64,000 bases of DNA from Cymodocea nodosa (lineage: Eukaryota > Streptophyta > Magnoliopsida > Alismatales > Cymodoceaceae), in the NCBI GenBank assembly GCA_036874045.1, contig CM072339.1, positions 4,781,501-4,845,500 on the forward strand, in the 5' to 3' direction. The first letter of the stretch is position 1, and each line of letters starts with the position of its first letter. The notes under the pieces were generated by a model. That model ran no database searches. It saw only the letters and a program-made list of their open reading frames with translations, and was not told the DNA's origin. A program made the translations under genes and the position numbers. This document shows, in pieces, positions 2,533-45,865 of the stretch.

Positions 2533-5500
2533 TTACAATCTTAATGATTCACGTCGAGCGCTATAGCCAACCATGTTTTGCCTCACAGACTTCGCACGCA
2601 CCATGCTGGCGTACTCGGGATCATTTGCCTTTGCATCCAACCTTAACCACTGTATCATCTCATGGAGCATGGGGAAGAATCTTGTCTGAACTGCTGAAAA
2701 AGTGAAGTAGGGAATCAGAGTGCCAATCACAACAAAAAGTGTAAGGAGCCAGAAAGAAGCTGCAGGAGCACAAGCTTCTACGAAGACCATGAAGGCATTT
2801 GTTGTTATGGTTGGTGTAATGGCGCCATAGGCCAGCAGGAAGAGATACCATAAAGCTACGCCTCCCCAAATTGCTATGTGTTGCACTAAGGTGAAATATT
2901 TGACAAAGATAGCCATTTGAACATTCACCACCCACACAACACATGTGTACATTGCAACCCCAAGAATGTCTGCCCCTACAGTTTCACCACCTTCCCTGAA
3001 TGCTTGGTGTTGATATGCAGATATGCAGAAGAAGAAGATGGTCACAGCATTAAAGATACCAAGAATCATCCAGCCAAGGATCCGGACCCATTTAAAAAGA
3101 AGATTTTGAATGCCTTCTTGATATAGTAGAGGGAACTGCAGTTTAGAATCTACCATTAGTTAATGGATAAAATGCAGTAAAAAGACTTCAGAACTGAAGA
3201 TATGTTAGATTTTGTGGCTGTACCTTCAGGCAGTACTTTGGTGAAACATCTTGGTCAAATACTCCCAAGGCCAGCACAGCAAGCGATGTGAAGAACAAAT
3301 TATATGTTGACATGAACCAATCATTATATGCAGGTTGTGCAGAGAATGAGGTGTATGCTTCATACAAAAAAATAGTCACACCAAAAGTGATGTTCTTGTA
3401 GAAGAAATAGCATATCTGCAAAATCAACAAAAAGGAACAAGAGGATTAGCACATAAATGTGAGATAGTGCATCACAACTACAAGAACAAAAAATAAGCAC
3501 ATACCATTGATGAGATCCTTCGATAACACCAGTGTCCATGCACAAGCAGTAAACGTTCCAGATATCTAAACTGAGCAATGGCAATGTCACTTGCCATAAC
3601 AGCCTGAAAATTTTGCGTTAGGGTTTATGAAATGTAACTGCATGGAAGTGTTTAAAATGTTTATCCATAGTATATCTTTGGAAATCTGAGTGCACCATAA
3701 AATGAAATTTCTTTCAAAAAAAATAAAGGGAAATCTCCAAAACACACCTGCATTCCTTCAAATCCACTAATTCCAATTCCTATATCTGCTTCTTGAAGCA
3801 TTCCAACGTCATTGGCCCCATCACCAATGCCTAACGTTGTTTTACCCGTTCCTAACTTGACTAGTCTTGTAACCTGCATGATGTGGTAAATACCTAATTA
3901 ATATCAAATTATTAATGTACAACAACACACACTAAATCAAAGTGCAAACCAACTAGATGTAAGGAAAAATGGAAAAGATAACTTACAAGAGCTTTTTGCT
4001 TGGGGGATGAACGACAGCAAATGACAGAGGCACATGCAGTAGCCAATGCCAGAAACATGTCTTTGACATCATCCATCAAAGCAAATGCAAGTGATTTTCC
4101 ATCAATTATAAGGGCAAATGCTTCATTACTAGATGAAGTAACAAGTTTTATCCCCTCATTTATTTGGCGAGTAACATTGGCTTTAGATGCCTGAAATATC
4201 AAAAGAATAATCAGAGAGAATGAATGAAGCCAAGTGGAATGACAGAATGTTATATCCATAGATTTGCAAACGTAAGAAGTATAGGAGGATTTCTATGACA
4301 AAGCACTTTAAAAAATCTGATCCTGCCTTCGCACAAGGAACATAAATAGTTTCAGCATTATGACCACAGATACAGATTATTTTTTGAGTTAGTGCAAATG
4401 CAAATTCCTTGTATACAGAGATGATAAATAATTTTAAGTTATCAAGGTTTGCAAATGAAAAAAATTACTATTTCACAAATGTTATCATGACAGAATGATT
4501 CCAGTAATAATTCACAGTACAGGCAAAATACCACTTAACATATTCTTCATGCTCACTACTAACTTGAATGCCAACTTTAAGTCTTCGTGATTTATTCATA
4601 AACCACAGGAACAATTTCAAACAATCATTAATGCCAGGAAAATAAACTTGAGGAAGGCTACCTTGGCAATGGCATCCTTGTTTCCTTCTTTCTCCAAGGC
4701 TTTAATTTCTGTTGAATCTAAAGAAACAAGTATCTGTTTCATTCCTTGTCTCAGTAGACTACAAGCAAAACTGCAATATGCGTAATTAAGCTAGTAGTAA
4801 GACAAGTGAATTGTAGGTTATACAACGATTAAGTAGTAGCTTAAAAAATCATGGCCATACTAAAATTAATACCCAATGTTGATAGCAGTCTCCATCTTAT
4901 CTCCAGTTAGGACCCAAATCTTGATTCCAGCTTGAGCAAGTTTGTCGATACAATCAGGAACCTGACATAAATAATATTAGAAGGCTGATTTACAAGAAAA
5001 AGTTCATATCAAATTATTTATTTATATTTGCACTACTCACGCCAGCCTGCAGTTTGTCCTCTACAGCCGTGGCACCAAGAAGTACCAAGTCCTTTTCCAT
5101 CATCTCTGCAGCAGCAGCAATCTTTCCCTCTCGATCTGCACTAACAGAGGTCTTTGCCTCTATATATCTCTTGTTGAATTCAACATATTCTTCTTCGTCA
5201 AGTTCACGATATGCCAATACCAAGGTTCTAAGACCAGCATCAGCATACTCATTTATATGCTCCCTCGTTTCTTCCTCAAATCTCCTATTTGTCCCAAGCA
5301 GATCGAACATAACACTGTTGATATTAATCCAGAGAGAGAAGGAATGCAGTTAAGATCAGGGACATATATAAAGACCAAAATCTGTAGCCGTTTCATTTAC
5401 ACTGCAATGAGTAGTTTGCAAGCATCATAGAAAACACACACCTGTCAGCGCCTTTGCAAAGTAGCAACAATTTGCCATCCTCGGCTTTAACAATAACAGA

Positions 5501-7604
5501 CATCCGCTTCCTCGTGCTGTTGAACTCTAAAATATTCAAAAGCTTATATTCCCTGCTATATGTAAAGAAGACATCTATAAGTGCCCCAAGCAATATGATT
5601 AAAAACAAAAATACAGAGAACTATAAGATATTGAAAGTCCCATCCTAAAAAGCATTTGATCAACCAATATGCCAAACAAGTAGAAATATTGAAGTAACTT
5701 TATAAAACTGCAAGAAAAAGAAAGACCTTTCAATTGTCATTCCCGAAGAAGGATCCAGCTCATGAACTGAGACGCTTGTCTGTGTCCTCTGGAAAAATTC
5801 AAAGCCTAATTCCCTTGCTGCAACAACAAAGGCTGCCTCATCCGGTGATTCAGCTTCATAAGATACTTTGCGGGAATTGTCATCAATTTCTGGTATCACA
5901 GTGTGACAGACTGATAATACTTGAAAGAAAATTTGAATGACATCTGAATGAGGCTCTCCAACCCAATTGCCATCCATAACACGTTCATCCTTGAAGTTGA
6001 AACCCTTCACAGCAGGACCTTTAGTCACATGATCATTATCTTCAGTTCCATTTCCAGAATATAACGGTGATCTATTTTTTCGGGCCACTGCTCTCTCAAC
6101 TTCAGTAACTCCAAGACCATATGCTGTCCCAGCAATAGAACACTTCATGAATTCCATGGAGTTACATGTCAAAGTCCCAGTTTTATCAGTAAGAATAGTG
6201 TCAACCAGACCAAGTTCCTCATTCAAGTTAGATGTACGAGCATGTGCTGGTTTGTCAGCCTCCTCGTAGTACATGTTGATATCTTGGTTGATAAACATGC
6301 TTTGCAAAACTTTAACTATCTCGATGGATATATACAAAGAGATGGGAATGAAGTAGCCATACAAAATCATTGCTGACAAGAAATGGAAAAATCCAGCAGC
6401 GGCTGACTTTTCAGGATTAAAGAAAATGGTGGTGTCATCAGGTCTAAGATACCACCGCTTCAATTTACCACTGCTAATGTCCTCATCAGTTATGACTCCG
6501 AAGAATATTGATCCAAGAACTGATAAGAAGACCATGAAAGAGAGCAGAACGTAGATAATCTTATCCATCTTTCTCTCTATGGAACTTCTCTTGGATGGTG
6601 GAGTTGTGGCATTTTGCATTACTTTGGTATCATGACCAGTAAAAACCACAGCTCCATAAACATATTCCGTGTTTCGAAGTTTTGAGTCCCTAAGAAGAAG
6701 TTGCTGAGGAGAAAGTGGATATTGTTGCTCTTCATAATCCATGGTTCCCACAAAAGAATAAAGATTGGCATTTGGGTCTTCACATTTAACTACAGCTTTA
6801 AATTGACAAATGCTAGAATCACTCTGTAAGCTTGAGGTCACATCTAGTGCTTGCTTTACCTTCAAATTTGTCTCACCATCGAGATTCATGGTCTCAACAT
6901 AGCAAACACCATCATCAAAGCTTGAGGAAAGTAAGATTAGGTCTGCTGGGAAGTAGTTGTCCTTCTCTACCTTTACTACGTCCCCAACTCTAAGGTTCTT
7001 CCATTCAGTAGAATTAAAAGTACCATCACCTTGGTGTACTTCAGTCTTTCGGTTGTTCACTTCATTATCCTAAAAGTTAAATTAGCCAATCAGACTAGCA
7101 TTCAATCATTGAAATGGGAACAGATAGGAAACAGTTGAAAAATAAGGCACTACAGAAGAGAGAAGAATCAAAAAATTACTGTCAGATTGTACCAATTGAT
7201 AGATAGGATACCTGTTGCCTCCGCCTCCAATCTTCAAGGGCTTCCTTGAGCATGGTAGCAGTAATCACCAAAACCAGGGGTAAAATGGCACTGACAGGAG
7301 TGAAGGGTGACAATGGTGTGAAGGAGAGGATGCCTGAGATGAGAAAATATATATTTGCAACCCTCCTGAACTGCTCGTACAATGACTTGGGGAAGAAATT
7401 GATCAAAGTGTACTTCGTGGTAGAAATATGGTTCACCCCGTAGTTGAGGCTAGTGGCCTCAAAGCAATCGGGTTCGTTTAGGAAAGCAACGCGGGAGTAC
7501 CCAGGACCTCCGACCTGGCTGTGATCCTCCTGGAACGAGGGTCGCACACATCCGAACGAATATATTTTGCTCAGAAGCAATTTCCTCCTTCTCCCCCTCG
7601 CCAT
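2533..7604 (-). CDS. P4-type ATPase, phospholipid flippase (ALA9/ALA10-like)
   Basis: P4 ATPases use ATP to move phospholipids from the outer to the cytosolic leaflet of plasma or Golgi/endosome membranes, usually with a CDC50/ALIS beta subunit. I assembled eleven exons by GT/AG sites and frame: 7212-7604, 5727-7069, 5442-5552, 5041-5314, 4873-4961, 4662-4770, 3987-4190, 3748-3873, 3505-3603, 3224-3415 and 2533-3135. The joined frame has no stop, is 3543 bp long and encodes 1180 residues, the usual family length. Visible motifs are the actuator DGET at about 195-198, the P4-specific PISL at about 373-376, the phosphorylated Asp in DKTGTLT at about 426, SPDEAA in the nucleotide domain, CKGAD at the end of exon 3, and GDGAND at about 858-863. 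Membrane segments of the C-terminal flippase domain fill exons 10-11. The start is the first ATG (MARGRRRK), followed by a SKIYSF segment typical of this clade. All catalytic motifs are intact, so the gene looks functional. Assignment to the ALA4-ALA12 group is by remembered family similarity; the exact orthologue is not settled. Confidence 0.95.
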
Positions 7605-11689: not shown

Positions 11690-11858
11690 TGTTAGGATCG
11701 AATGACTCACTAGAGGGGGGTAAATGGCGATCTATGTGTAATTTTAACTCTTTTCAAAACTTAGCTAATTGATTTGATTAGTAAGTAAGCATAAGTATTA
11801 AATAAACATGCACAGCAGTACTAAATAATTGATATACAAGAATTTTTAGGTGGTTCAC

Positions 11859-13796
11859 TGTTTGGGTTTTCCCAGCACTACACTAGAAAAACTTGGATTT
11901 GTTACTTCCATTTTTACTTAGTTAATTTATCTTTATGCCTATTCTTTCTTTTAGAAGTAAACAAACAACCTTTAATACAATTTAGATATTAATTCCAATT
12001 TGTACTTTAACTACAAGTGTACAGTGTCTATTGTATCAGTGTGCAAGTACAGGTCGATCCCACAGGGAATTGCTGACGAATTTAAGAAATGTTTGATTGT
12101 GAACAATTCAAATTTATATTCAATAAGTACTCCGTTAAGTTACAGTTAACTCAACGGAATAAGTTCATTGAGTTATGGCTAACTCAACGGACTATCCTCG
12201 TGGACTTAAGTTAACTCCACGAGCCTGTCTCTTCTTTATAATACTGCTATTTACAGAGGAATTCAGCCAACCATTAGGCGATTCCACAGATTGTAAATAA
12301 CATCAATTAAGCTTTTTAATGCTATTTAACATTGGATTTATCATTAAGCAATACTAACATTCAGATGATTCAAACAGTAACCATTAAAATCTTTAAGTTT
12401 TTTGTACGAACCAATTTCAGTAAACTGTAAAATTAAAACTAACATAAAACAATCATAAAACTGATATAGATAACATTAATCACGATACAACACAAACAAT
12501 ACAACACTCAAATACAACATACAAACAAAGATAAATTGTTTTTGGTAATTTTGTTTTTGATATGAACATGGAAATGAGCGAAAGGTGAAATGTAAAGTAA
12601 TCTCACTTGACAGTAAATACTTCCGACACTACTTGCAACACGGTTACACCACTGAAAATTAAACCACTTACAATTCTGTCTCCTCTCCCTATAGAATCGC
12701 GAGTCCAGAATTGCAAGATGATCTCCTCTTCAACATACAGGCATCAACCCGAAGCCAAGGCTAAAAGCTTTACGATCTCCTGAAATATGAGTCGGCGCTT
12801 GGTGAAAATGGCTTCCCTTCCCACGACGCGATCACTCCTCACAGTGGTTGTCAAGCACTGTGTTTGGCTTGGAATTGACTCGACATCAGGCAAGTATCCT
12901 CACAGACCTCCGATGATTGGTGATTATGGTGGTGATACGATGGTTGGTGTGATACTTCGGAGAATTGTCGATATTGTCTGCAGAAAGCTCGGTGCTCCTC
13001 CTCTGTATACACTGCCCTCCATCAATCACACACTTTCTTTTTTTTTCTTCTTTTCTTTTATATTTCTTCAGTAGTAACTGCTTCTGCTTGAATGATCGGT
13101 TGGATTTCCTTCTTTCAGATCAACGGCGATGATTTCTTTCTCCCTGTGCGATTGAATTCCTGCGTGATACGTGCAAACATGGTTTTTCCTTCCAACTGTC
13201 TGTTCCTACAACCGCTATAGTGGCATTTTGGAAAATAACTATAAAATACATGCAATAAAGAAATAAGCCGCTAACCTAACGCGTTACCTTAGTGTATATT
13301 CATGTAACTCAACGCATACAGTTATGCTAACTTAACTAGTTATAACTTAAGTAAATCTACCAGCTCTCGACACATGTCAGCAGTAGTTTAAACATAAAAT
13401 AACATTTCAGAGAGTTACAGGTATAACTATCCGATGCTCAGATGCATTTTCAGATAGCTATAGCTAACTCACCGAAAATTCACTTAAGACATTCATTCTG
13501 GTTTCGACACGTGTACATTTGGAAATAATAAAATATTCTCTCTAAACATAACTGTTCAGCAATTTAAACATAACTATTCGAAATATCAGAAAATTCGAAT
13601 ACTTAAGAATTTCACAGCTTGTAACTTACCGACAGTTCATAAATATACTAAATTAACATTAATTCCCTAAAATTAAGTAGATTCTTCAATTAAAGCATAT
13701 AATAGTGCAATTATAACATAATGGCTTAATTCTCATATGATAAGCTAAATATTATGTAATTAACCATTAATAATATGCACTTTTTCATTCTAAACA
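11859..13796 (-). repeat. 3' LTR of element A
   Basis: 1938 bp. The sense-strand TATA box is at about 13055-13066 (AATATAAAAG), which gives a U3 of about 0.73 kb and an R/U5 of about 1.2 kb. A trio of short hairpins lies at 12131-12223, and the conserved GATCCCACAGGGAATTG block is at about 12056-12072. The antisense open frame at 12787-13074 recurs in the other LTRs. Differences from the 5' LTR in the hairpin block are almost all C/T or G/A. Confidence 0.88.
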
Positions 13797-15558
13797 CTTC
13801 CCCCATACCTAAATTTTGCTAGTCCCTTAGCAAACTAAGATCTAATTAATTGGTCTTTCAAAAAGTGCTAGAATTAATTCTTCCCCTTTTGTTTTTTTTT
13901 CTTCTGTTTAGCATAAACATATATTCTGTATGTTTCAGTAATCAACCTGCAAAGATATTAGAATATATGTAAATTACATACAAAGTATATCATCTTCATA
14001 TAGGTGTTAATTATATTATCGTTTGTTCTTCTTTTCATCATCTGTAATCCTGAATTTTCCAATAAGTTTTCTAGAAGAAATTTCAACAACATACGAATCA
14101 AAGTAAAATCCAATTCAATCTGATTAAGACAAGTAGAATAAAGAATTGTATTTCCATTAAACAACTTCAAAAGTCAATTTCAGATTCATATTTCAGCAAT
14201 TCTAGATAATAGAAAATATACTCGATTCATAAGATATCTGTATTTCACAAAACACTTGTATCTTTTCAGAAAAGTATATATATATATATTTTTTTTATAC
14301 TTTAAAAGTTAATTTGACAAGCTTGAATCATACAAGAGCTTTCTAATGTACCCATGTAACGAGCTTTCAGTCAACAATCCCAGATCTGATCAGGATCTTA
14401 GGTTGCCAGATTTTCAGAGTCCTTTTTCAGGTCAACAATCCTTACATACCTATCTGCTCAAGTACAAAAGGCTCGTGATCAAATAAGTCAATAAACTCTC
14501 AAAGTTTTTTTTCTCTTTTTTTTTTTCTAAAAATAAATGCACACACAAAACAAAGCATTAATCACATACTGTATATGCACGTATTTCATTAATACAGATG
14601 TAGTAAAACACCAATCTCATATAATCCTGCTTCTATCATTTACTAAAAATATGAATCCATAACAATAAGCTCATACTTTATCTATAGTTTAATAAGATCT
14701 ACACATAAATCATTCTACAAGTTCAATCAGTCAAAGTAAATGTATCTTTCATCATATGTGTTTCATTTAATCTAGAATTCACATCTCAGCTCCTTCAGGA
14801 CTTCAGATAATTTTCTGATTAAGCATTAAATATTCTGATTTCATTTTAAAATCGTGAAACTGTTAAACTCATGAAATTCAGAAAAATCATAAGATACTAT
14901 ATCTAGATTTACATAAATAATAAATTCTATAGCATCTTCTATAGCCTTCTAAATATAACATTCAAGCAGTTTATAAAAATTTTACAGTCTCAATTATCGA
15001 ATAGTTACAGCAAGTTCATAAAAATTTTCAATTTCCTCAAAACTTTGCAGTACCATTTTAATTCCTTTAATTAACAAACTTACATGGCTGTTACTTTAAT
15101 TACATCCCCCCCATACTTACATTTTGCATTGTCCTCAATGTAAAAGATTTGACAATAAGTATAGTAATTGTAGCAAACATGAATAAAATTTTGTTTGATT
15201 TAAAATTCAGGATAAGTAATTGGTTACATACCTTGTTCCATTTGTATCTCTTTCTGCATATTCCGATTTTTGATTCTGAAAAACTTTTCATTCCCAGATA
15301 AACACAGAATATAAAACAAAATAACATTTAACAGATATTAATAAATCAGTGTCTTGTGTGGAACCCAAGCTTCTATGCCTTTGGTGGCTCACAAGCAAGC
15401 TAGTTGATTTCCTAGAACAGATACCAACAAACTAGATTGATATTTTGTTTTGTTTTTTTTTTTTATAAAATGAACATGAAAAATTTCAAAATTCCTTCTT
15501 CTTTTTTTCTCTAAAAATAAATGCAGAATACACAACATTAAACACACAAAATCACAGC
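13797..15558 (-). other. 3' non-coding internal region of element A, with two purine tracts
   Basis: There is no coding frame on the sense strand. The primary purine tract is at 13797-13806, directly against the 3' LTR. A second one is at 15105-15146, preceded by CATTGAGGACAATG, a block often seen ahead of the purine tract in Athila/Tat elements (from memory). A strongly conserved block around 14340-14490 is also present in C (from 56426) and D (from 62298). On the + strand it opens a short frame starting MYPCNELSVNNP, antisense to the element, so I do not call it a gene. Confidence 0.6.
15105..15146 (-). promoter_or_regulatory. Second, internal polypurine tract of element A
   Basis: The sense strand reads CATTGAGGACAATG, then GTATGGGGGGG. 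The same arrangement recurs at 57172-57214 (C), 63051-63090 (D) and, degenerate, 45139-45175 (E). It lies about 0.4 kb downstream of each F-box stop codon and 1.3 kb before the 3' LTR. It could be a second plus-strand primer or the relic of an older 3' end. Confidence 0.5.
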
Positions 15559-16725
15559 TTAAGAGCATGATTGAAAAGTAGAAACAAATGGAATAAATGT
15601 ATCAGTCCAAGCAAACTTTTTAGGCATAGTTCTTCTTGCTATTAATTCTGTTTCAATGCTGTTCTTGTTCCTTTTTAATTTGTAAACATGCAATATATTA
15701 TAAATTCCAAATACGAGTGTATTACCATTGATGATATGTAATGCAGAAAGGGATCCTTTTTGGTTCCAAGGTAATGTAGCAGTTTCTATTTCTACATCTA
15801 TTTCAATATACTCCTCTTCCCACTTCCATTCATTCATGTCTTCCATAATCCATATTTGAAATTTCATCAGTTCATCCCACCATCTTATCAGACATAAAGT
15901 AGGATCATCTTCTTCATTATACCACATTCCTATTTGAATTTCATTAAATTTTGCAGATGGTGGTTTAGCTATTTCACTCGGTACAGGTAAAATTTCTATA
16001 TAATCATCATAACTGTCTATGCTCACTATGTATAAATCAGATCCATATGCTAATGATATCTCCGTGACTAGATATATATATCCATCAAGTATGACATGTG
16101 TTTGGTTAATTAATGATTTCTGTCCTAGATATATCATAATATTTTCATTCCAAGATTTGTTCAGAAAATTATACACACTTAAACGTAAATCTTCACCCCA
16201 ATTTCCTGTAGGTCTCCAATAATATAATTTTTCAGGAATTGCAGAATTTTTATCAGAAAATATTAAAGCTGACCTACAATTTTCAGTTGGTGCTTCAAAT
16301 ATATTAGGCCTTCTTATATTCCATTCTTCTCCTGTTATAGGATTTTGTATCAAAATATCAGGTAATGATAAACTTGCATACCTTGGTCTCGTCTTGTATA
16401 TGATTAATCCTTCATCTATCCCCATAATATGACTCATTCCTTCTAATGCATTGGGTGGAATTCCAGTAGTTTCTTCCATAGCCAGATATTCATGGGTATT
16501 TGAACTACGATTAAATGACCTCCATATGAATCCATCTCTAATCTTAGTCATTTTTGCAGCTTGTAGTCCTTGAAAATATTTTTCTTCAATACAGTCTTTA
16601 ATTTCCTTTGATACACAACACAGCCTGCACAGATCTTTAGCTGACAAGTTACTTAATACTTCCCTTAGTGCATCCATTGGTAATTGCATCAATTCCATTT
16701 GTCGATTCAGTCTGAAGCTTTCCAT
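15559..16725 (-). CDS. F-box protein carried by an LTR retrotransposon
   Basis: An intact 388-residue frame. F-box proteins bind SKP1 and bring targets to SCF ubiquitin ligases. The F-box is at about residues 12-50: LPMDALREVLSNLSAKDLC, then CRLCCVSKEIKD. The remainder resembles F-box-associated kelch/propeller-like domains, with LYIVSIDSYDD, WYNEEDDPTLCLIRWWDE, then a FQIWIMEDMNEWKWEEE strand typical of plant FBA regions. There is no intron. The start is the first ATG; a second in-frame ATG ten codons later also precedes the F-box. The gene lies between the element's leader and 3' LTR, on its coding strand. Three other copies (43985-44588, 57650-58786, 63316-64000) are broken. Whether A is translated is unknown; its target is unknown. 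Confidence 0.88.
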   Translation of the reverse strand: MESFRLNRQMELMQLPMDALREVLSNLSAKDLCRLCCVSKEIKDCIEEKYFQGLQAAKMTKIRDGFIWRSFNRSSNTHEYLAMEETTGIPPNALEGMSHIMGIDEGLIIYKTRPRYASLSLPDILIQNPITGEEWNIRRPNIFEAPTENCRSALIFSDKNSAIPEKLYYWRPTGNWGEDLRLSVYNFLNKSWNENIMIYLGQKSLINQTHVILDGYIYLVTEISLAYGSDLYIVSIDSYDDYIEILPVPSEIAKPPSAKFNEIQIGMWYNEEDDPTLCLIRWWDELMKFQIWIMEDMNEWKWEEEYIEIDVEIETATLPWNQKGSLSALHIINGNTLVFGIYNILHVYKLKRNKNSIETELIARRTMPKKFAWTDTFIPFVSTFQSCS

Positions 16726-18230
16726 TCTATAAATATTTGTTGTCGGATGAAGGTTGAATCAGCTGCTTCTCCTTCCAGTTCCTCCAATGCTTTCTCCTTT
16801 CTTTTAAAAGTGCTGGTAACTCGTAAATAACATTCTGTTTCATATATATACTGCGCATCCATAAAGTGAATAAATCTTGTTGCAAGAACGTGTCTTGCAA
16901 CGTGCATCGTGGTTCCTGTTTTTATGGGTACGTGTACTACTACTAATTTCAAATTTTGGTAACCGCTAAACCGACGAAGTTTCGTTTGTGGTTAAAAGAA
17001 TAACCGTTCTGCTTAATCCACGAACTAACCTCGTTGAGTTATAGATTACTCAACAGAACACAATTGGTTATTGTTGCTAACTCCACGAACTAACTTCGTT
17101 GAGTTATAGATAACTCAATGGAGTGACCTTAAATTATATTACTGACCTCGTGGAGTTACGGTTAACTCAACAGACTTACTTCGTTGAGTTAACACTTGGC
17201 AACTTCTAAGTTTCACTCTCGTAAGTTTTCTATTCTGTTTTTTTCTCTTTGTCATTCTGCTAACTGTAATAAAGTTAAATCTATGTCATTAATGCCTCAT
17301 TTTGATTAAAATATATTTAAATCTGAACATTATATAAAGATTTAACTTGCAGGTCATTTTATGTTATGCAGAATTTACATTTTACCTTATAACATGTAGA
17401 AATTTTTAAGCAGTTATCTTGTCATTCAGCAAATTGTAAATCTGTTACATATTCATAAAGTTCCACAAATTACATAATATTCAATAAATTCCATTCATTT
17501 CACATCCACATACGTATGAAAATTGCATCTGAAAAATTATATTCATTAATATGAATCAATTACATTACAAGTACATCATACAATTTCATACAATTTTACA
17601 CAAGTAGACGAACAATACAATTTAATCTCTATGCCAAAATTCATCTACTTCATTCTGAAGTTTTTCTAATTTTAGGTCTTAGCTACAGTACTCCGTTGAG
17701 TTACAGTTAACTCAACGGAATAAGCTTGTTGACTAACTCAAGACTCAACGGAGTAAGCTCGTTGAGTTAAGTGTAACTCAACGGACTCCCCGTATATGCA
17801 ATTATAATAATAATAATATTACAGAGAATAGTTTTTCTATTTTTTTACAGGTTTAACCGATAGTATGCTTCGGTCAGACCTAAATATTTTTATTATTTTT
17901 CTTTCGGTTGAACCGATACTATGTTTCGGTAAAACCAATATTTTTTTCTGAAAATTAATATACAATTTTTTTACCGATTTAACCGATACTATGCTTCGGT
18001 TAGACCTAAATATTTTTTATTTTTTTATTTTTCTTTCGATTGGACTGATACTATGTTTCGGTAAAACCAATATTTTTTTCTGAAAATTAATATACAATTT
18101 TTTTTTTTTTAATGTTTCAATCATGCCAATGGATCCAATCGGTAGAACCGCAGCTATTTTTATGTTTTATATATATTTTTAATGTTTAACTCAATTCAAT
18201 TCAATTCACTTCGACTCAATTCAATTCAAT
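16726..18230 (-). other. Leader of element A with hairpin and tandem-repeat arrays
   Basis: 1.5 kb between the primer-binding site and the F-box start. Hairpin units built on GTTGAGTTA and TAACTCAAC lie at about 17020-17200 and 17690-17795. A tandem array at about 17845-18070 repeats a 60-bp-scale unit containing AACCGATACTATGCTTCGGT. A short frame at 16707-16952 overlaps the F-box start in another frame and has no recognisable domain. No gag is visible here, unlike copy C. Confidence 0.6.
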
Positions 18231-18248
18231 TCCCCAGCAACGGTGCCA
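18231..18248 (-). other. Primer-binding site of element A (tRNA-Asp type)
   Basis: The sense strand reads TGGCACCGTTGCTGGGGA, eight bases inside the 5' LTR. It differs at two positions from TGGCGCCGTTGCCGGGGA, whose first 17 bases are the complement of the plant tRNA-Asp 3' end as I recall it. This sets the orientation of the element as minus. Confidence 0.85.
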
Positions 18249-18278
18249 TAAAACTTGTTTGGGTTTTCCCAGCACTAC

Positions 18279-18908
18279 GGGCGTGTTAGTGCATGACGGA
18301 AAATTCTGACGGAAAGGAAAAGGAAAATTCTGACGGAAAGGAAATGGAAAATTTGTAACGGAAAGGAAAAGGAAAATTCTGAGAGGGGTTTAGTGCAGGA
18401 CGGAAAATTCTGATGGAAATTCTGACAAAAATTTATTACAACTAATATTCGAAAAATACAAATACATCTTAATTGAAATATTACAATACGAAATAATATC
18501 ATCTAGTTCTTCCATCCCACATTGCCATCATCATATCTTCTCGCATCTTATCTGCCATTTCTTTTCTTTGTTCTTGAGTCATTCGAACTTGGGTATTGCT
18601 TTCTATATGTATCTCTCCCATTGGTTGTATGTCATCAATAATATTTAACTCTTTCAACTCATCTAGCAGGTCCTCAAGTAAATCTTCCTTATCAGTCTTA
18701 CGAATTCCGTCAGGCACGAGAGAGGGAGAAAAATTTTCTGAATGGGGGCGATCGGAAATTTTCTGACGGTAAAGGAAATTTTTGGATTTTATACAACGAT
18801 AAAATCCGACTTTCCTTTTCGTCAAGTGTAATGCACACTAACAGCATTCTAACAGAATTCAATAATTTTCCTTTCCGTCAGCTGAATTTCGTTAGGCACT
18901 AACCCCCC
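18279..18908. mobile_element. PIF/Harbinger-like DNA element inside the LTR
   Basis: Comparison with the uninterrupted 3' LTR shows exactly where it entered. It is a 630-bp insertion with a duplication of TAC (equally CTA or CTAC). The ends are imperfect inverted repeats, GGGCGTGTTAGTGC against GGGGGGTTAGTGCC, continuing through shared GACGGAAAGGAAAA. GGG-rich ends and a 3-bp duplication fit PIF/Harbinger, although the usual target is TWA. A second copy of the terminal motif lies inside, near 18382-18410. Confidence 0.75.
18499..18825 (-). pseudogene. Possible HARBI1-type transposase C-terminal fragment
   Basis: A 108-residue frame in the DNA element. Its last 20 residues (KEMADKMREDMMMAMWDGR) resemble the MR(D/E)...MW tail of PIF/Harbinger nucleases, after an acidic LLEDLLDELKEL segment. 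The beginning runs through the element's repetitive end and is probably not a true start. No DDE residues are present, so this would be an internal-deletion derivative. The family call rests on a short match plus the element's ends. Confidence 0.4.
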
Positions 18909-21900
18909 TACACTAGAAAAACTTGGATTTGTTACTTCTATTTTTACTTAGTTAATTTATCTTTATGCCTATTCTTTCTTTTAGAAGTAAACAAACAACC
19001 TTTAATACAATTTAGATATTAATTCCAATTTGTACTTTAACTGCAAGTGCACAGTGTCTATTGTATCAGTGTGCAAGTACAGGTCGATCCCACAGGGAAT
19101 TGCTGACGAATTTAAGAAATGTTTGATTGTGAACAATTCAAATTTATATTCAATAAGCACTCCGTTGAGTTACAGTTAATTCAACGGAATAAGTTCGTTG
19201 AGTTATGGCTAACTCAATAGAATATCCTCGTGAACTTAAGTTAACTCTACGAGCCTATCTCTTCTTTATAATACTATTGTTTACAGAGGAATTCGGCCAA
19301 CCATTGGGCGATTCCACAGATTGTAAATAACATTAATTAAGCTTTTTAATGCTATTTAACATTGGATTTATCATTAAGCAATACTAACATTCAGATGATT
19401 CAAACAGTAACCATTAAAATCTTTAAGTTTTTTGTACGAACCAATTTCAGTAAACTGTAAAATTAAAACTAACATAAAACAATCATAAAACTGATACAGA
19501 TAACATTAATCACGATACAACACAAACAATACAACACTCAAATACAACATACAAACAAAGATAAATTGTTTTTGGTATTTTTGTTTTTGATATGAACATG
19601 GAAATGGGCGAAAGGTGAAATGAAAAGTAATCTCACTAGACAATAAATACTTCCGACACTACTTGCAACACGGTTACACCACTGAAAATTAAACCACTTA
19701 CAATTTTGTCTCCTCTCCCTGTAGAATCGCGAGTCCAAAATTGCAAGATGATCTCCTCTTCAGCATACAGGCATCAACCCAAAGCCAAGGCTAAAAGCTT
19801 TACGATCTCCTAAAATATGAGTCGGCGCTTGGTGAAAATGGCTTCCCTTCCCGCGACACAATCACTCCTCACAGTGGTTGTCAAGCACTGTGTTTGGCTT
19901 GGAATCGACCCGACATCAGGCAAGTATCCTCATAGACCTCTGATGATTGGTGATTATGGTGGTGATACGTTGGTTGGTGTGATACTTCGAAGAATCGCCG
20001 ATACTGTCTATAGAAAGCTTGGTGCTCCTCCTCTGTATACACTACCCTCCATCGATCACACACTTTCTTCTTTTTTTCTTCTTTTCTTTTATATTTCTTT
20101 AGTAGTAACTACTTCTACTTGAATGATCGGTTGAATTTCCTTCCTTCAGATCAACGGCGATGATTTCTTTCTCCCTACGCGATTGAATTCCTACGTGATA
20201 TGTGCAAACGTGGTTTTTCCTTCCAACTGTTTGTTCCTACAACCGCTACAGTGGCATTTTGGAAAATAACTATAAAATACATGCAATAAAGAAATAAGTC
20301 GCTAACCTAACGCGTTACCTTAGTGTATATTCATGTAACTCAACGCGTACAGTTATGCTAACTTAACGAGTTATAACTTAAGTAAATCTACCAGCTCTCG
20401 ACACGTGTCAATAGCAGTTTAAACATAAAATAACATTTCGGAGAGTTACAGGTATAACTATCCGATGCTCAAATGCATTTTCGGATAGTTATAGCTAACT
20501 CACCGAAAATTCACTTAAGACATTCATTCTAGTTTCAACACGTGTACATCTGGAAATAATAAAATATTCTCTCTAAACATAACTATTCGGCAATTTAAAC
20601 ATAACTATCCGAAATATCAGAAAATTCAGATACTTAAGAATTTCACAGCCTGCAACTTACCGACAGTTCATAAATGTACTAAATTAACATTAATTCCCCA
20701 AAATTAAGCAGATTCTTCAATTAAAGCATATAATAGTGCAATTATAACATAATGGCTTAATTCTCATATGATAAGCTAAATATTACGTAATTAACCATTA
20801 TTTAACCGTTAATAATATGCACTTTTTCATTTTAAACATTCACCAACTTGGCTAGTCCACCCTCAAGATTCACTTGGGTTTCACTAAGTATTTTACTACT
20901 TACAGCATTTGCTTTCAAGTTGAAGTAAGAACCAATACTTGAGCTTTCAAGTAAAAGCGAACCAACACTTGAGCTTTCAACCTTTCTCGAGCTTTTATGT
21001 ATAAACTCTTAACCAATAGTGAGTTTTCAGGTATAAACTCACAAACCAACAATCTTGCTTTCTTTTAGAATGTGAGTATAGAGAGCTTTTGTTATTATTC
21101 TTCTTCTTCAGTATTTTCTAAAATGTGTATTGTGAAATATTTTATGTAGCTCTCAAAAGTATATGATGATCTTCTTTTTTTCTTTCTGTTCAGATCATAC
21201 TTATACCAAGGTGTATAACGATTATATTCTTTCTAACGGCATTTGTCTTGTTGTACTTACTGCACTATCAATCCCAAAAATAATAAGTTACCATTTAGAG
21301 AGATGCTTCAAGGTAACCCTTCGATTCTATTTGACTTTTGGATAGTTAACTGATGTAACCTTCCAAAAAATCCAAATGCCTAATCTGTAACTCTTTAAAA
21401 AACCTTGAAGAGTTATTCCACTCACATGATCTTTAAGTTCTGCGTGTGACTTTAAATTTAGCACGTGAGCCTTTAAGTTTGGATAGTTATGCTGTTAACT
21501 TACCGAAATATTTTAACTTTCGAATAGTTAGCTACAGTAACCTTCTAGTTCTTCATCTAAGCTTTCGACTGCTGTTTTCTTATTTCTACATATGTATAAT
21601 TGAATAACTTAAGTTTCAGATAGTTAAATCTATAATCTTTCGAAACTTCCTATTTTTCAGATAGTTATCTTTCCTAACTTTTCGAAAATCCCTTTAAGCT
21701 TCCGACTAGATTTCTACACATGTATTTTTAAATGACTTAACTGTCTAGATAGTTAGCCTTCCTAACTTTCCAATTTTAAAATATTTCCAGATAGTTAATT
21801 TCTCAATCTTTCGATCATTCGATCAACTATCCTACTAACTTTCCGAAGGACTTCCAATTTTGGATAGTTAGCCTTCTAACTTTCTAAAAGAATTCCTATT

Positions 21901-22690: not shown

Positions 22691-24380
22691 ATGATTAGGA
22701 AAATATAGTAGAAGGATATTACAAATCATTTAGGCAACATATTCCTAAGTCTCTTCTTAATTTCATAAACTATTTTTCTTTAATAGGCTTTGTGCAAATA
22801 TTTGTCAACTATTCATGAGTAAGAATAAAACTCAATTCAATATTTTCCTTCATAATATTATCTCTTAAGAAATTATGCCTAATCTCAATATGCTTCACTT
22901 AAGAGTATAGTATAGGATTCTTAGAAAGACTTATAGCACTATTACTATCATAATTGATAGAAGTTATTCCATACTCAATTTCATAATCTTTCATGATTTA
23001 CCTCATCCATAAAATTTGTGTACAACATAAGGCAGCAACAACATATTCTGCTTCAATTGTGGATAATGCAACACAACTTTGCTTCTTGATGAACCATGAG
23101 ATTAATGAACTACCAAGTAGTTGACAAGTTCCACTAGTGTTTTTCTATCTAACTTACATCTGCCATAATCAGCATCACTATATCTAATTAAATTCAGGCT
23201 GCTATCCTTGAAATACATTAGACCATAATTTGATGCCCCTTGTAAATATTTCATTATTCTCTTTACTACAATCAAATGGGATTCCTTAGGTTGAGCTTGA
23301 AATGTAATACAAGCACAGAACTAAACATAATGTCAAGTCTAGAAGCTGTTAAGTATAGAAGGGAATCTATCATTCCTCTATATTTTGTAATATTAACAAC
23401 TTTTCTTGATTCATCTTTATCCAATTTAATTGAAGCACTCATAGGAGTTCTTGAAGATTTACAGTTATTCACTCCAAATTTTTCTAAAAGTTGTTTTGTA
23501 TATTTTTCTTGATATATAAAGGTGTCTTTCTCAACTTGTTTAATTTGTAAACCTAAAAAGAAAGTTAACTCACTCATTAAGCTCATTTCAAATTGATTTT
23601 ACGTTTGATCTGCAAAATGATTACTTAAACTCTCATTTATTACTCCAAAAATAATATTATCAACATAAATTTGAACAACTAGCAGACCAAGATAATTTTT
23701 CTTAAAGAATAAAGTATTATCAACATTACCAATTAAGAAACCATTATCTAACAGAAAGGTTTTCAGCCTATCATACCAAGCTCTCGAAGCTTATTTTAAA
23801 ACATACAATGTCTTCTTTAGTTTGAAAACATGCTCAAGAAAATCAATATCCTCAAAACCAAGTGATTGCTTCACATAAACTTCCTCTTTAATTAATCCAT
23901 TAAGAAATGCACTCTTGACATCTATCTAATATAATTTAAAATTCATATGAGCAGCAAAAGTTAGAAAATTTCTAATGGATTTTAACTTAGCCATAGGAGC
24001 AAAAGTTTCTTCAAAATCTATTCCTTCTTGTTAGTTATATCCTTAAGCAACTAATCTAGACTTATTTCTAATCACATGTCTTGATTCATCAGATTTATTC
24101 TTAAAAACCCATTTAGTGCCTATTATAGAATGATTTTGGAGTTTAGGAACTAAATCCTATACTTCATTTCTTCTGATCTGATTAAGTTTTTCTTGCATGA
24201 CACTAATCCAAAATTCATCATCTAATGCCTCATTTATAATTTTAGGTTCTAACTTAGATAAAAATGCATTACACTTGGAGAAATTAATTTTAGATCTGGT
24301 TTGAACACCTTTAGAAATGTCATCAATCACAAGTTCTTTAGGATGTTGAGGTAGGAATTTATGAGTTGTAGGGTTTTCTT
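22690..24380 (-). pseudogene. Copia reverse transcriptase and RNase H remnant
   Basis: Sense-strand reading gives an RT core with AFLNG and LYVLK near 23800-23920, and the catalytic box near 23640-23680. That box reads YVDN where active elements have YVDD. It is followed by FFLGLQIKQVEKDTF and TPMSASIKL (23272-23586), then KYRGMIDSLLYL. RNase H follows with LSTIEAEYVVAALCC near 23020-23080 and KNPILYS..KHIEIRH near 22880-22920. Multiple stops and frame shifts make it non-functional. The Asp to Asn change in the catalytic box fits G-to-A decay. Confidence 0.85.
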
Positions 24381-25330
24381 ATCTATCTTGAATCATGGTA
24401 CTTGGTTCTCCATTAATTGTTTCCTCACACTCATCTTTAGAAGTATCAATATTTTCTCTTATGTTGATAATTGACTCTTCATCAAAATTTATTTGCATTG
24501 ATTCCTCAATAGCCAATGAATTTTTATTATACACTCGGTATGCTTTACTTCTAGAAAAATATTCTAAAAATATTCTTTCATCAGACTTTGGTTCAAACTT
24601 GTCTTTATTTTCTTTAATATTCAAAATGAAACATCTAGATCCAAAGGCTTTAAAATAGTAAACTTTAGGTATTCTTCCTAACCACAATTCAAAAGGAGTC
24701 TTGTCTAAACTAATTCTAAGTTACCCTATTTAGAATAAAACATGCAGTATTAATTGCCTCAGCCCAAAAATAATAGGCAACATTATTCTCATTAAGCATA
24801 GTCCTGACCATTTCTTGAAGAGATCTATTCTTCCTTTCTATAACTCCATTTTGAGAAGGGGCTTTAAGAAAGGCAAATCTATATTCTATTCTTGGTTCTT
24901 GGCAAAGATTTTCTATATTCTCATTTTCAAATTCTCCTCTATGATCACTCTTAATTTTTTGAATTTTCAATTGCTTCTCATTCTATACTAAATTTAGAAA
25001 ATTTTTAAACACCTCAAATACTTCACTATTATGTTTTAGGAAAATTACCCATGTATATCTTTGGAAATCATCCACTAGAACAAATACATATTTCTTTCCA
25101 CCTAGACTTTCAGTTCTAGTAGGACTAAACAAATCCATGTGGATTAATTCTAGAATTCTTTTAGAGATAATCTTCTAACTAGACTTAAAAGAACTTTTTC
25201 TCTACTTTCCTAGCTCACAAGCATCACAAATTTTATCCTTCTTATAGCTCATTCTAAGTAATCTTTTAACTAAGTTTTTCTTAGCTAACTTATCTAATTG
25301 CTTCATATTAATATGACCTAATATAGATGT
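24380..25330 (-). pseudogene. Copia integrase remnant
   Basis: The sense strand carries the integrase core. MDLFSPTRTESLGGKKY and VLVDDFQRYTW lie near 25020-25150, and the SDHRGEFENENI segment is at 24716-24970. The catalytic Glu of the DD35E triad is in QNGVIERKNRSLQEM. The 102-residue frame at 24379-24687 is the integrase C-terminal region (RIPKVYYFKAFGSRCF). Stops separate the pieces. Confidence 0.85.
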
Positions 25331-25760
25331 CATAACCATGCATTATCTAAATTACTAGCAATTAAATAGGAATCAGTAGAAGATACACCATCAAGTAAAT
25401 TTAGAAAACATACATCATTCTTTCTATGAGCAACAAATTTAACTTCATTTGATTTTTCATCAATAACTAAACATTTCTTAGATTTGAACAAAACCATATA
25501 GCATTTATCTTCTAATTGAGAAATACTAATTAGATTATGTTCTAAATTTTCAACTAATAAAATATTATTAATAATCATTTTATCATTGACATATACTGAA
25601 CTAATTCCAATAATTTTACCTTTTTGATCATTTCCAAATTTTACATTTCCTCTATCTATTTTCTTCAAATATTTTAGGATAGTTTTGTCTCCTATCATAT
25701 GTTTTGATGCACCATTGTTCATCACCCATAATGATCTTTTAGTTTTTACTTGTAAGAATA
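25330..25760 (-). pseudogene. Copia protease remnant and pre-integrase linker
   Basis: A 131-residue frame beginning near the protease active site. The site reads NNGASKHM where active copia proteases have DSGASKHM, so the catalytic Asp is lost. It continues into the linker with NILLVENLEHNLISISQL and AHRKNDVCFLNL. Confidence 0.82.
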
Positions 25761-27600
25761 GTCATGATCACTTACTTTGGTACCTAGATTTTCTTAGGTC
25801 CATTCTTGTTAGTAGAAAATTTTTTAAATCTATTCTATTTGCATATCCAAGTATTATTTAGAGTTTCTTTTTAGCACATAAATAACTTTTTCTTTATTAA
25901 TGATTTTTAAATAGCCATTTCTATAATTCATTTTATAACTATTTGAAAAATTAACAGAAGCATAGATTTTTTGGTAGTTCATAATTATAACCTATACTAG
26001 TTATATCACTAAAAATTTTATAACTATTTATGATGTTAATTAATTTCTTATCTCCTTTAGTAAAGGCTTCTAATTTATATTTTAGTCCACTTATTTCTCT
26101 TTCCAATTAATCTATCTAGTTTTCAAAATGGATTTTTCTTCACAATAATTTCTAAGTTTGTTATTTAATTCAAAAATTTCATTCTATAAATTTTTATTTC
26201 CTAGAGACTGATTTTCTACTTCTTTTGTAAGTTCTGAATTATCATTTTCAAGTTCAAAAATCTTATTATGCATATCAGAATCAAAAGTAATAGATTTATT
26301 CTTCTTAAGTGCAAAATTTTTAGATTTTAATTCAGCATTTTCTTTTTCTAATTTTATAACCAATTTATTGTTGTTTGATAATTTTCTTTTCAAGGAAAAA
26401 TTCTCTAGACTAACATTCTTTAATTCTTCAAATAATTCATTATAGTCTTCTTAATTAATATCATATATGTCTAAATCATTATCAGAAATAAATGAATCAA
26501 CAATTTTAGAATCAAAATGTACCTCATCTATTTTAGCCATAAAGCATATATTGACTAATTCTTCAATTTCAGATTTAGTCTGTGATCCTTTAGTGTTGGT
26601 ATCTTCAGAGACTTCAAAGGTTGTAGAATCATCCCAAGTGACTTGAAATGTTTTCTTCATTCTTAGGCCATATTTTCTCTAATTGTATTTCTTCTTTCCG
26701 TAGAATTTTTTCTTGTTAAAATTGTTTTTCTCATCCTTCTTTTGATAGTTACATTAACTTTGAAAATGTCCAAATTCATTGTAGTTGAAGCACTTAGAAC
26801 CTAATTGTTTGCTTTTGTCATTGTCTTTTCCTTTCTTCCAAAATTTTTTGTATTTTCAGATGACACAAGCAAGTTCCTTAGAAAAATTATTAATAGGTTC
26901 TTCAACAAGTTGTTGAACTTTCAAAGCAAGCTTCTTTTTCTTTTCAACTTTCTTTGAGGATTCTCCTTCCTCTTCTTTACAATCATTTAATTGTCTCATA
27001 GGCTAATAGATTGCTAGTGAGATCTTCTAAAGTAAAAGTCCTCATGTCCTTAGAATCTTGTAGAGATGTAGTCTTGACCTTCTAATCTTTATTTAGACTT
27101 CTCAAGACTTTAATGACTTGTTCTTTCATAGGGAATTCTTTTCCAAGATTCTTCAAGACATTTATAATTTCAATAAATCAAGATATGAGATCAATGATGC
27201 TCTCATTCTCTTTCATTTTAAACATTTCATACTTTCTCAGTAGTATGCTAATATTGGTGTCTTTCACTTCATTTGTGCCCTCATAGGTAATTTCTAGGCT
27301 ATGCTAAGTTTCACATGTAGTAGAATAAGTAGAAATCTTGTTATATATTTCAGTAGTCAGTGCATAAGCCAATGCATTCATTCCTTTAGCATTTATCTAA
27401 ATTTTCTTTTCATCTTCATGAGACCACATGTCTTCAAGGATGGTTGGTAGTTGTATCCCATATACAACTGCTCTTCAAACCTTTACATCCATATATTTAA
27501 GGAAATTAGTCATTATCATAGTTATTACCATCACAAACAAAGGTGGTCTGTGAACATGTTGACCTTCTACCATTGATCTTAAATTAATTAAATCTATTAA
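25761..27600 (-). pseudogene. Copia gag remnant
   Basis: Broken sense-strand frames. A knuckle-like CFNYNEFGHFQS segment near 26730-26800 has its second Cys replaced by Tyr. Lys/Glu-rich segments follow, at 26451-26660 (MKKTFQVTWDDSTTF) and at 26184-26393, a coiled-coil-like stretch rich in Leu, Glu and Asn. RQLNDCKEEE..SSKK near 26930-27000 is typical of the basic gag segment before the knuckle. Confidence 0.75.
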
Positions 27601-42699: not shown

Positions 42700-43850
42700 G
42701 CAACATGGAAAGAAATCCCAGGACCGTGCTCTGACGTGGAGAGGTCCGCAGGTGATACTCCAATGACGCTCGGGACTAGTGGTGAGATGCTTTGTTCATT
42801 GGCAGAAGTAGTGGTCTAGTGGTAGAGTATGGTGGTGTCGGCCAGGTAAACACGACAACATTGCCAAATCACCTCCTTACCCTTCCTGAGTATGGTGGTG
42901 ATTTGGCAATGTTGTCGTGTTGCCGAGTGATCGAGACAAATTGTGTGCCAATGGCGTTCCGAGTCGAAAAGTGAGGGAGGAGGAGAGAGAAATCGATGAA
43001 CTAGGAAATGAGAACCTCGCCCTTCGATGACTTTCATTCACGACTTCTTGGGTTTTTATAACTAACTCAACACATTTAATGAACTCGAAACATTCAATGC
43101 AAACAACAACTCGTTTAATGAACAATTAAATACGACTCTTCGTTTATTAGTTGATGGCTCCTCCTTTGTCTGGGTGGGTGCCCGCGTTTGATCTCGCATT
43201 GAAGACGATGACACACTTTCGCCACTTTGGTCTCCCACGTCGCTTCCGTTGTTGGGCCGCTCTAGCGATGTTGCAACAACTTCCTCCCCTGGTGAAGGAC
43301 ACTACTTGTTCTCAAGCGAGAAGGTCGGGTAGGTGTGGATGAAGTTTGAGATAAGTCTTCCCATGTCAGATTTTCGGGGTCCAGGCCAACCCATTGAATA
43401 AGCAATTGGGTAATGGCACGTCCTCTGCGATTAACCATCGGCCCAAGAGTTTGACTGGCTCTTGTCCGCGGCCCTAGGAGTTTGGAAGGGCTGGTTCTGG
43501 GCCGAGGAAGTGGGTTTCTCATGGTGAGGCTTGAGTTGAGACATACGCAGGACAGGGCGATCTTAGTGGCGACGATAGTAAGGTTCGGTTCATACGCGAT
43601 GGCACCGATCTACCGAAGGATCTTGTACAGGCTGAAGTGATGTGACCGAAGCCTGGTTACAGTTTTAGGGTAGAACGAGAGCTGACTATAGGTATGGAGT
43701 TGACGTATACCCAATGGCCGATGGAGAAGCTACAGTCACATCGTCCCAACTACTTCCGGACTCAGTGCAGGTAGTGTTCGAGGGTTTCTAGCATCTAATC
43801 GCGGGATTAGAGTTGCTTAGCCACCTTGTCCACTCTAATTGTACCTGAAA
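42700..43850 (-). mobile_element. 3' end of a Ty3/gypsy chromovirus (integrase tail, chromodomain, part of LTR)
   Basis: GC-richer than its surroundings. In the sense (minus) direction, 43850-43540 reads as a decayed integrase C-terminus, ending with a MSQLKPHHE segment equivalent to the usual HPVFHVSQLK. The frame 43262-43522 continues into LLIQWVGLDPENLTWEDL, the second half of a chromodomain. Downstream, about 43200-42700, probable LTR sequence carries a TATAAAAACCC promoter motif near 43050-43060 and a long perfect inverted repeat at 42851-42919. The left end is not defined. Confidence 0.7.
42851..42919. repeat. Perfect 23-bp inverted repeat with 23-nt loop
   Basis: Arms at 42851-42873 and 42897-42919 are exact reverse complements, and the loop is 42874-42896. 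Just outside and inside the structure, AGTATGGTGGTG occurs twice (about 42826 and 42890) as a direct repeat. It lies in probable chromovirus LTR sequence and would form a stable hairpin in RNA. Confidence 0.9.
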
Positions 43851-43984
43851 CAAAAGTAAGGTGGGAGGTAGCGTACTGTAGACGGTCTCAGTGATCTTTT
43901 TGAGGTTTTCACTAAAGATTCAGAGATAATATTAATATTTTCTTATTGAAATTCAATTATATCTTATAAATTATTAGAGATCAA

Positions 43985-44588
43985 TTGAAAATTAAAATGA
44001 AGAATTATATCCAAATATTTACAATTTTGAGAAAAGATATTGACATGAGAATACTATAGCATATCTAAGAGATAGAATATTAGTTAACAAAATTCATATA
44101 TAACACTTGATAGTTATATATATCTAATTTCAAATATATCAATTATATTTAGATCCAATATGTATATAGTGAATATAAATAGTTACGATGAAATGGTAGA
44201 AATTTTACCTATACCTTAGATTATCGTTGAATCACCATCTACCTAATATAATAAAATTCAACTAGAATTATGGTATAATGAATTTATTTATCCTACTTTA
44301 TGTATAATAAGATGGTGAGATGACTTTGTGAAATTTCAAATTTAGATAGTGGAAGACTTGAATAAAAGGAAATGGAGAAATGAGTACATTGAATTATTTA
44401 TGGTAATAGAATCATCTATATCATCATGGTTGAGAAGAGGAACAATTTTTACATTTCATTTCATCAATGACAATACTCTGATTTTTAGTGTTGATAACAT
44501 ACTACAAGTTTATCAGTTAAAGAAACAAGCAAATTCCATAGAAGTAGAATTAAAAGTTAGAAAGATGATGCTTAAAGGTTTTGTATGA
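43985..44588 (+). pseudogene. F-box gene remnant of element E
   Basis: The + strand, with stops, corresponds to the last half of the element A F-box protein: ENTIAYLRDRILVNKIHI near 44045-44100, SYDEMVEILPIP near 44183-44220, LWYNEFIYPTLCIIRW near 44270-44315, then the open stretch 44349-44588 with EDLNKRKWRNEYIEL and DNILQVYQLKKQANSIEVE. Clearly homologous but strongly diverged, so this is the oldest copy in the window. Its N-terminal F-box half is not recognisable. Confidence 0.8.
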
Positions 44589-45459: not shown

Positions 45460-45865
45460 TATAATGAGGTTAATCAAGGTAATTAATGGAAGTAAGATCA
45501 TCCCATAATACTATTAGGGTAAAGTACTAAATTTTTGTCTATCTAGGAATTATCTTTCTTATTTATTACTACCTTGCCTTTGCAATTTTTGTGTAGCATA
45601 TTGTGTAATAGTTTGATTAGGAAAGTTCAAAGTTATGACTTTGGTCTATGTTTTGAAAAAAAAAAGAAGATCAATCAAGGCAATTAATGGAAGTAGGATC
45701 ATCCCATAATACTATTGGGGTAAGGTACTAAATTTTTGTCTATCTAGGAATTATCTTTCTCATTTATTATTGTCTTGCCTTATCAATTTTTGTGTAACAT
45801 ATCATGCAGCAGCTTGATTAGGAAAATTTGAAATTATGACTTTGGTCTATGTTCTAAAAAAAAAA
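45460..45865 (+). repeat. Tandem duplication of about 200 bp inside element E
   Basis: Two adjacent units, about 45469-45660 and 45671-45860, share ATCATCCCATAATACTATT, ATTTTTGTCTATCTAGGAAT, and TATGACTTTGGTCTATGTT followed by a run of A. The units are close to 90% alike by eye, more similar to each other than E is to element A, so the duplication postdates much of the decay of E. Confidence 0.8.

Follow-up and report, generated by a model that had tools for sequence, protein, structure and literature searches.

Plant long terminal repeat (LTR) retrotransposons commonly carry genes in addition to gag and pol, and the function of these extra genes is mostly unknown. In Ty3/gypsy elements, 314 groups of proteins encoded by extra open reading frames (ORFs) have been reported, with a known domain in 21.4% of the extra-ORF proteins, and an extra ORF together with a long non-coding region is named for OTA (PMC6317226). 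The term "F-box" is absent from the main text of that article, whose supplementary list of extra ORFs could include one. Athila and other elements have env-like frames downstream of the gag region (PMC7264820). A study of orchid Gypsy elements carrying an AlkB gene screened 121 angiosperm genomes using reverse transcriptase (RT) as the marker, and the term "F-box" does not occur in the article (PMC9289625). Here we analyze a single 64-kb stretch of the seagrass Cymodocea nodosa (contig CM072339.1; hereafter the window), which contains an LTR retrotransposon, element A, whose only gene encodes an F-box protein. Our preferred interpretation, held with moderate confidence, is that A belongs, as a non-autonomous element, to a Ty3-type family, most likely Athila/OTA, that captured a host F-box gene of the F-box-associated type in the sense orientation between gag (or gag-pol) and the 3' LTR before A diverged from an older relative, element B. 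Element A has the anatomy of an LTR retrotransposon, other copies in the window share its gene and junctions, the association of gene and LTR is old, and one copy, element D, has a gag-like frame.

Element A and its F-box gene

The features of element A, which is read on the minus strand, are as follows (window coordinates):

11854-11858, no strand: left target-site duplication, TTCAC
11859-20838, minus (sense strand): element A, a complete LTR retrotransposon that lacks gag and pol, defined by its target-site duplication, LTR pair, primer site and purine tract
11859-13796, minus: 3' LTR, 1938 bp
13797-13809, minus: polypurine tract GGTATGGGGGAAG, abutting the 3' LTR
15106-15116, minus: second purine tract GCAAAATGTAAGTATGGGGGGG, with similar flanking words, 1.3 kb upstream of the first
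15559-16725, minus (sense strand): intact F-box ORF, 388 amino acids, Pfam F-box
16576-16689, minus: F-box domain, residues 13-50
16726-18230, minus: 5' internal region, with TAACTCAACG-type palindromic repeats and a tandem pair
18231-18248, minus: tRNA-Asp-like primer-binding site TGGCACCGTTGCTGGGGA, after a 7-base spacer following the 5' LTR
18256-20838, minus: 5' LTR, split by a miniature inverted-repeat transposable element (MITE); 1950 bp without the 630-bp MITE and the TAC duplicate
18279-18908, no strand: MITE-like insert, 630 bp, with imperfect terminal inverted repeats and a TAC duplication, nested in the 5' LTR
20839-20843, no strand: right target-site duplication, TTCAC

An earlier note on this DNA had described A as a complete LTR element, and this was borne out: the LTRs have TG..CA ends, the 5-bp duplication TTCAC is present on both sides, and a primer site and purine tract lie next to the LTRs. 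We take the primer-binding site to be the complement of tRNA-Asp with two mismatches. An Rfam scan of positions 11700-21000 yielded nothing at gathering thresholds. Alignment of the two LTRs over 1938 sites shows 86 differences (Kimura two-parameter distance, K2P, 0.046), of which 80 are transitions, as expected for decay of methylated DNA. At a substitution rate of 1.3e-8 per site per year, the LTR divergence would correspond to about 1.8 million years. With a rate of 7e-9 (PMC8764390), the estimate becomes about 3.3 million years. The second purine tract is also present in element E, a further copy described below, and is altered in D. Because the two tracts lie 1.3 kb apart with similar flanks, second-strand priming could begin at two sites; the F-box gene is upstream of both. 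The counterparts of the paired tracts in E are at 63054 and 61750.

The claim that the only gene of A encodes a 388-residue F-box protein on the coding strand was also upheld, in that no other ATG-started frame reaches at least 120 codons and neither gag nor pol is present. The predicted protein scores 39.1 bits with PF00646 (cut-off 20.5; E-value 6e-10), which rules out a chance frame. It also gave 28.2 bits with TIGR01640 (F_box_assoc_1; E-value 1.1e-6), below the cut-off of 37.9, so that by its sequence it appears similar to F-box-associated type 1 proteins rather than a full member. Homology between A and D begins just before Met10 (16698), and the native start may therefore be Met10. A search of the PDB with the protein returned nothing at an E-value of 1, and a plasmid DNA search gave no match. 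A single-sequence structure model had a mean predicted local distance difference test score (pLDDT) of 44, too unreliable for use.

Several other features of A were observed. The LTR has three adjacent hairpins formed from TAACTCAACG-type palindromes (12110-12245, minus), at the same place in other LTRs, with a minimum free energy of -48.2 kcal/mol compared with a mean of -24.5 in 200 shuffles (z -6.7). Across six LTR copies (B being left out) most pairs were kept and 3 of 36 had changed on both sides; the covariation term was slightly unfavourable, and LTR copy F disrupts much of the first hairpin. In A and D, the hairpin words are found again upstream of the F-box gene. A similar open antisense frame (NMSRRLVKMASLP..), 96-110 codons long, occurs in each LTR of A (12784-13071 and 19814-20119, plus) and, with an altered end, in E (60489-60818, plus); the one A copy examined had no Pfam match. 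The tandem pair of the 5' internal region (17839-18104) has a unit of 134-140 bp, the two being 90% alike. Within the MITE-like insert (18279-18908), a short frame ending MADKMREDMMMAMWDGRTR matched no Pfam family above cut-off.

Related elements within the window

The remaining features considered here are as follows:

43932-47818, plus: element B, an old inverted relative, with the 3' part of the F-box gene, 3' region, purine tract and 3' LTR
48953-53095, plus: LTR F, belonging to a related element and split by solo LTR C
50465-52630, minus: C, a solo LTR flanked by GTTAT/GTTAC (one mismatch), with no internal region and no F-box
54381-59563, minus: element D, with partial 3' LTR, 3' region, F-box pseudogene and gag-like frame
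58976-59551, minus: gag-like frame of D (..NPN*RNHPNLSWRNNN..), with one internal stop, upstream of the F-box on the same strand
59564-64000, minus: element E, nested in D and cut by the window end, with LTR (59564-61746), 3' region and F-box
2536-7604, minus: parts of a gene for a phospholipid-translocating P-type ATPase (PhoLip_ATPase_C, E-value 1.5e-34; E1-E2_ATPase, E-value 2.5e-8)

F-box copies were sought in the window by tblastn (E-value 0.001) and blastn, and all counts refer to this window. None of the four copies found lies outside an LTR element, and all four elements with a visible 3' internal region (A, B, D and E) contain the gene. This agrees with the proposal that one F-box gene sits at a fixed place in several members of a single LTR family. 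The earlier note had placed the copies in C, D and E; by homology, the copies other than that of A lie in the elements labelled D and E here and in the inverted element B. The LTR at 50465-52630 (C here) had to be rejected as a carrier, being a solo LTR nested in LTR F. LTR F is accompanied by a primer site of its own (TGGCGCCGTTGCTAGGGA, 53103-53120) and shows no 3' part.

The order gene, 3' region, LTR is common to A, B, D and E, although the 3' region is patchy in B. Between A and each of D and E, the non-coding 3' region of 1.4-1.5 kb has 92-93% identity over aligned letters and is joined to both the gene and the LTR, a likeness far beyond chance. The copies are in varying states of decay. 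In B the gene (43932-44636) covers approximately codons 154-388, and codons 163-388 contain eight stops; its 3' LTR starts at about 46288, the outer LTR end being uncertain. The D gene (57650-58796) has six in-frame stops over residues 7-388 of A, five of them after Met10; D has lost the purine tract by the LTR and the start of the 3' LTR, and its 5' side is interrupted by E. The E gene (63316-64000) has a one-base frameshift, and its first ~160 codons are beyond the window end.

Distances between the copies differed by segment. For E versus A, K2P was 0.047 in the F-box (685 sites within the window), 0.071 in the 3' region and 0.119 in the LTR, while for D versus A the values were 0.114, 0.079 and 0.137 (partial LTR), respectively. 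The ranking of segments is thus not the same in D and E, which may reflect exchange among family members. Differences from A to D in the F-box comprise 36 G-to-A and 21 C-to-T changes, against 22 A-to-G and 7 T-to-C. In BLAST matches, B and A have 70% DNA identity in the F-box and 68% in the LTR (K2P ~0.40 and ~0.47, the LTR distance being rough because the LTR end of B is uncertain). As B carries gene and LTR joined, their association long predates the insertion of A. From the two substitution rates used above, it can be dated only roughly, at ~15 to 34 million years.

The gag-like frame of D reads ..GNSCNPN*RNHPNLSWRNNNFQGG... A 107-residue piece, the only one used in the protein search, matched the public protein fragments P0001 (4.3e-22) and P0002 (1.6e-8), which come from contigs of 658 and 511 bases. 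By eye, P0002 extends into the upstream gag-like piece and lacks the stop present in D. With this frame upstream of it in D, the F-box looks to be an accessory gene, lying at the env-like place in a family that carries gag and is probably Athila-like. The anatomy of A (extra gene, long non-coding region, long LTR, tRNA-Asp-like primer) would fit the Athila/OTA clade, a lineage that uses a tRNA-Asp primer. Sequence comparison revealed no match to the gag-like frames of D in A, including its 5' internal region. The descriptions "non-autonomous" and "built around an F-box gene" suit A and need changing for the family, given that D has a gag-like frame backed by P0001 and P0002. A literature search for a gag motif found nothing.

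Outside these elements, the P-type ATPase pieces are likely to represent a host gene. Broken copia-type pol pieces lie at 23275-25761 (minus), with RVT_2 (below cut-off), SH3_retrovirus and Pol_BBD matches. A weak chromodomain match (E-value 0.006, below cut-off) at 43265-43609 (minus) adjoins the truncated element B and is possibly a chromovirus remnant.

Possible selection on the gene and alternative explanations

Several results point to a possible retention of the gene by selection in the past. Nei-Gojobori estimates of omega (the nonsynonymous to synonymous rate ratio) were 0.54-0.58 for the three pairs that include B, with bootstrap upper ends of 0.85-0.91. A codon model for all four copies (codons 210-387, tree ((A,E),D,B)) gave an omega of 0.48, with a log-likelihood (lnL) of -1385.3 compared with -1391.9 at omega 1 (best kappa tried; 2ΔlnL ~13.3), although masking of the stop codons biases this omega low. 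When the observed substitutions were placed randomly on the frame of A, the change from A to B showed 90 nonsynonymous codons compared with 103.6 expected (codons 209-388; none of 2000 runs was as low), and the deficit was also seen over codons 163-388 (P 0.012). Stops were likewise fewer than expected, with 5 compared with 10.2 (codons 209-388, P 0.039) and 8 compared with 13.8 (codons 163-388, P 0.041). From A to D, the nonsynonymous deficit gave P values of 0.024 (codons 7-388) and 0.058 (codons 162-388), and the six stops (8.1 expected) were as by chance; from A to E there were no stops compared with 3.4 expected (P 0.018). On these counts the gene was possibly under some constraint in the past, which is no proof of function.

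A number of results weigh against capture and retention of a host gene by an Athila-like family. Only one of the four F-box genes, that of A, is intact, the other three being broken. Pairwise omega values were 0.69 (0.45-1.06) for A-D, 0.63 (0.29-2.04) for A-E and 0.92 (0.56-1.89) for D-E, intervals that all pass 1, and the codon model for these three copies (omega 0.72; lnL -1234.1 compared with -1234.8; 2ΔlnL ~1.5) was inseparable from omega 1. There was no nonsynonymous deficit from A to E (P 0.24), and synonymous counts did not rise significantly in any pair tested (lowest P 0.08). Nor was there an excess of third- over first-position changes, the counts at the three codon positions being 61/40/62 (A-B), 55/41/59 (E-B), 55/42/59 (D-B), 42/32/43 (A-D), 13/8/10 (A-E) and 29/19/24 (D-E). 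Changed codons from A to B numbered 110 compared with 118.7 expected, so that part of the deficit reflects clustering of changes. Regarding the family, no Pfam family matched the gag-like frames of D above cut-off, Athila ORF-1 not being among the matches; the likeness to an Athila-type gag is our assumption. An autonomous partner would need pol, and neither RT, integrase nor any other pol sequence was seen in these elements. Regarding the source gene, the F-box protein had no homologue at an E-value of 0.001 in a protein collection that is possibly plant-poor, and a 130-residue piece had no match in the same collection even at an E-value of 1.

Much of this would be expected if the gene were a passive passenger, captured once and multiplied with the lineage simply because nothing removed it, the protein being useless to the element. 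The nearly neutral pattern of codon changes in A, D and E, the lack of third-position excess in every pair counted, the stops in D and B and the frameshift in E all fit such a history. LTR-captured genes have been described by the hundreds, and in rice many of them become pseudogenes (PMC3726574). We give this explanation a little less than an even chance: the gene was retained through the A-B divergence with an omega of 0.48 (somewhat lowered by the masked stops), and A still has an intact frame of 388 codons even with 4.4% divergence between its LTRs. The presence of four copies inside 64 kb might suggest that host DNA containing LTR and F-box multiplied as segmental duplicates rather than by retrotransposition; this is, however, very improbable, since A has its own TTCAC duplication and both LTRs, E lies inside D, and B is inverted and much older. 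This explanation was dropped because the flanks of the copies differ.

How A came to lack gag and pol is a separate question. Similarity between A and D starts at GAAT(C/T)GACAAATGG and is absent before it. In D this breakpoint is preceded by GCTAAAATTTTTGTTTGTGTTATATAG, with 56% T in the last 25 bases and the previous AG 45 bases upstream, and the homology starts within one base of the AG, the shared G leaving one base of doubt. The D breakpoint plausibly resembles a plant 3' splice site. Element A could thus be a reverse-transcribed spliced RNA in which LTR and primer site were followed by a leader (the leader region of A being 16709-18255), the F-box, the 3' region, the purine tract and the second LTR, an origin that would explain the loss of exactly gag and pol. 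Speaking against this, the 5' region of A matches D in nothing beyond short palindromic words, and an unspliced leader followed by a donor site was not observed. With a single junction and such a leader, an origin of A from spliced RNA rather than by plain deletion would seem to have no better than an even chance. We see as an equal prospect that A arose by simple deletion from an element with gag, pol and F-box, or by recombination. A and D do differ upstream of the gene, and deletions are common here, D having lost the LTR-adjacent purine tract and the start of its 3' LTR; the position of the breakpoint at a plausible 3' splice site argues the other way, weakly, as a single coincidence in one pair. 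The A/D pair also suggests a simple route to non-autonomous elements with an accessory gene.

If A does belong to a family that captured and retained the gene, its replication and the action of its protein might proceed as follows. The element RNA would start in the LTR, a spliced form would yield the F-box protein, and gag and pol proteins would be supplied in trans by fuller relatives. As predicted from its domain, the F-box protein would join SKP1 and cullin (SCF), and its C-terminal part would hold a host protein and present this partner to the SCF ubiquitin ligase. The most sensible guess at the target would be a component of RNA silencing or of another host defence, by analogy with two viral F-box or F-box-like proteins, polerovirus P0, which acts against AGO1, and nanovirus Clink (PMC3588083), and with an endogenous F-box regulator of AGO1 (PMC2914764). 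How far contact with SKP1 matters is under debate even in the case of P0 (PMC6593998). In a stronger version, which we regard as unlikely, the F-box would have served a plant Ty3 lineage for many millions of years in countering host defence, retained at the env-like place and turning SCF on a silencing or integration-control protein, and the lineage would also spread as small satellites lacking gag and pol that arise by reverse transcription of spliced F-box RNA.

Comparison with described systems

Host genes carried by LTR elements are of a known kind, while a family carrying an F-box gene is, judged within the open-licence literature, a new variety. In searches of that literature aimed at it, no F-box-carrying LTR family is described in the titles and abstract openings listed, while an article on Thlaspi does name an F-box gene within an LTR element. 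The Thlaspi case belongs to catalogues of genes inside LTR elements; the present locus differs from such captures in that one gene occurs at the same junctions in several family members, including an old one. The F-box is common to four elements of the window, and searches for its source gene in the possibly plant-poor protein collection were without a match.

The nearest relatives in structure are the Ty3/gypsy elements with extra ORFs (PMC6317226), which resemble those described here in their long LTRs, tRNA-Asp-like primer, gag-like frame (in D) and a sense gene before a long 3' non-coding region; they differ in that the extra gene here encodes an F-box protein and that no RT or integrase was seen. 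The orchid Gypsy elements encoding an AlkB m6A demethylase (PMC9289625) are alike in keeping a host regulatory gene across a plant LTR family, and elements without RT, such as A, would escape a screen that uses RT as its marker. Retrotransposons with a cytosine methyltransferase (PMC5890265) also carry a host gene that possibly acts on host control of the element; that gene is a different one, and the hosts are dinoflagellates and charophytes. Planarian Burro Gypsy elements (PMC6431247) have MATH_TRAF_C and other ubiquitination- or apoptosis-related motifs within an LTR element, but as part of a giant polyprotein, in animals, and with no F-box named.

Should a recognizable E3-ligase adaptor prove to be carried family-wide, one of these extra genes would have a direct, testable biochemical role. 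Polerovirus P0 and nanovirus Clink (PMC3588083) provide a functional analogy only, that of a selfish replicon with an F-box protein, and an F-box-carrying LTR family would be the transposon parallel to these viral proteins.

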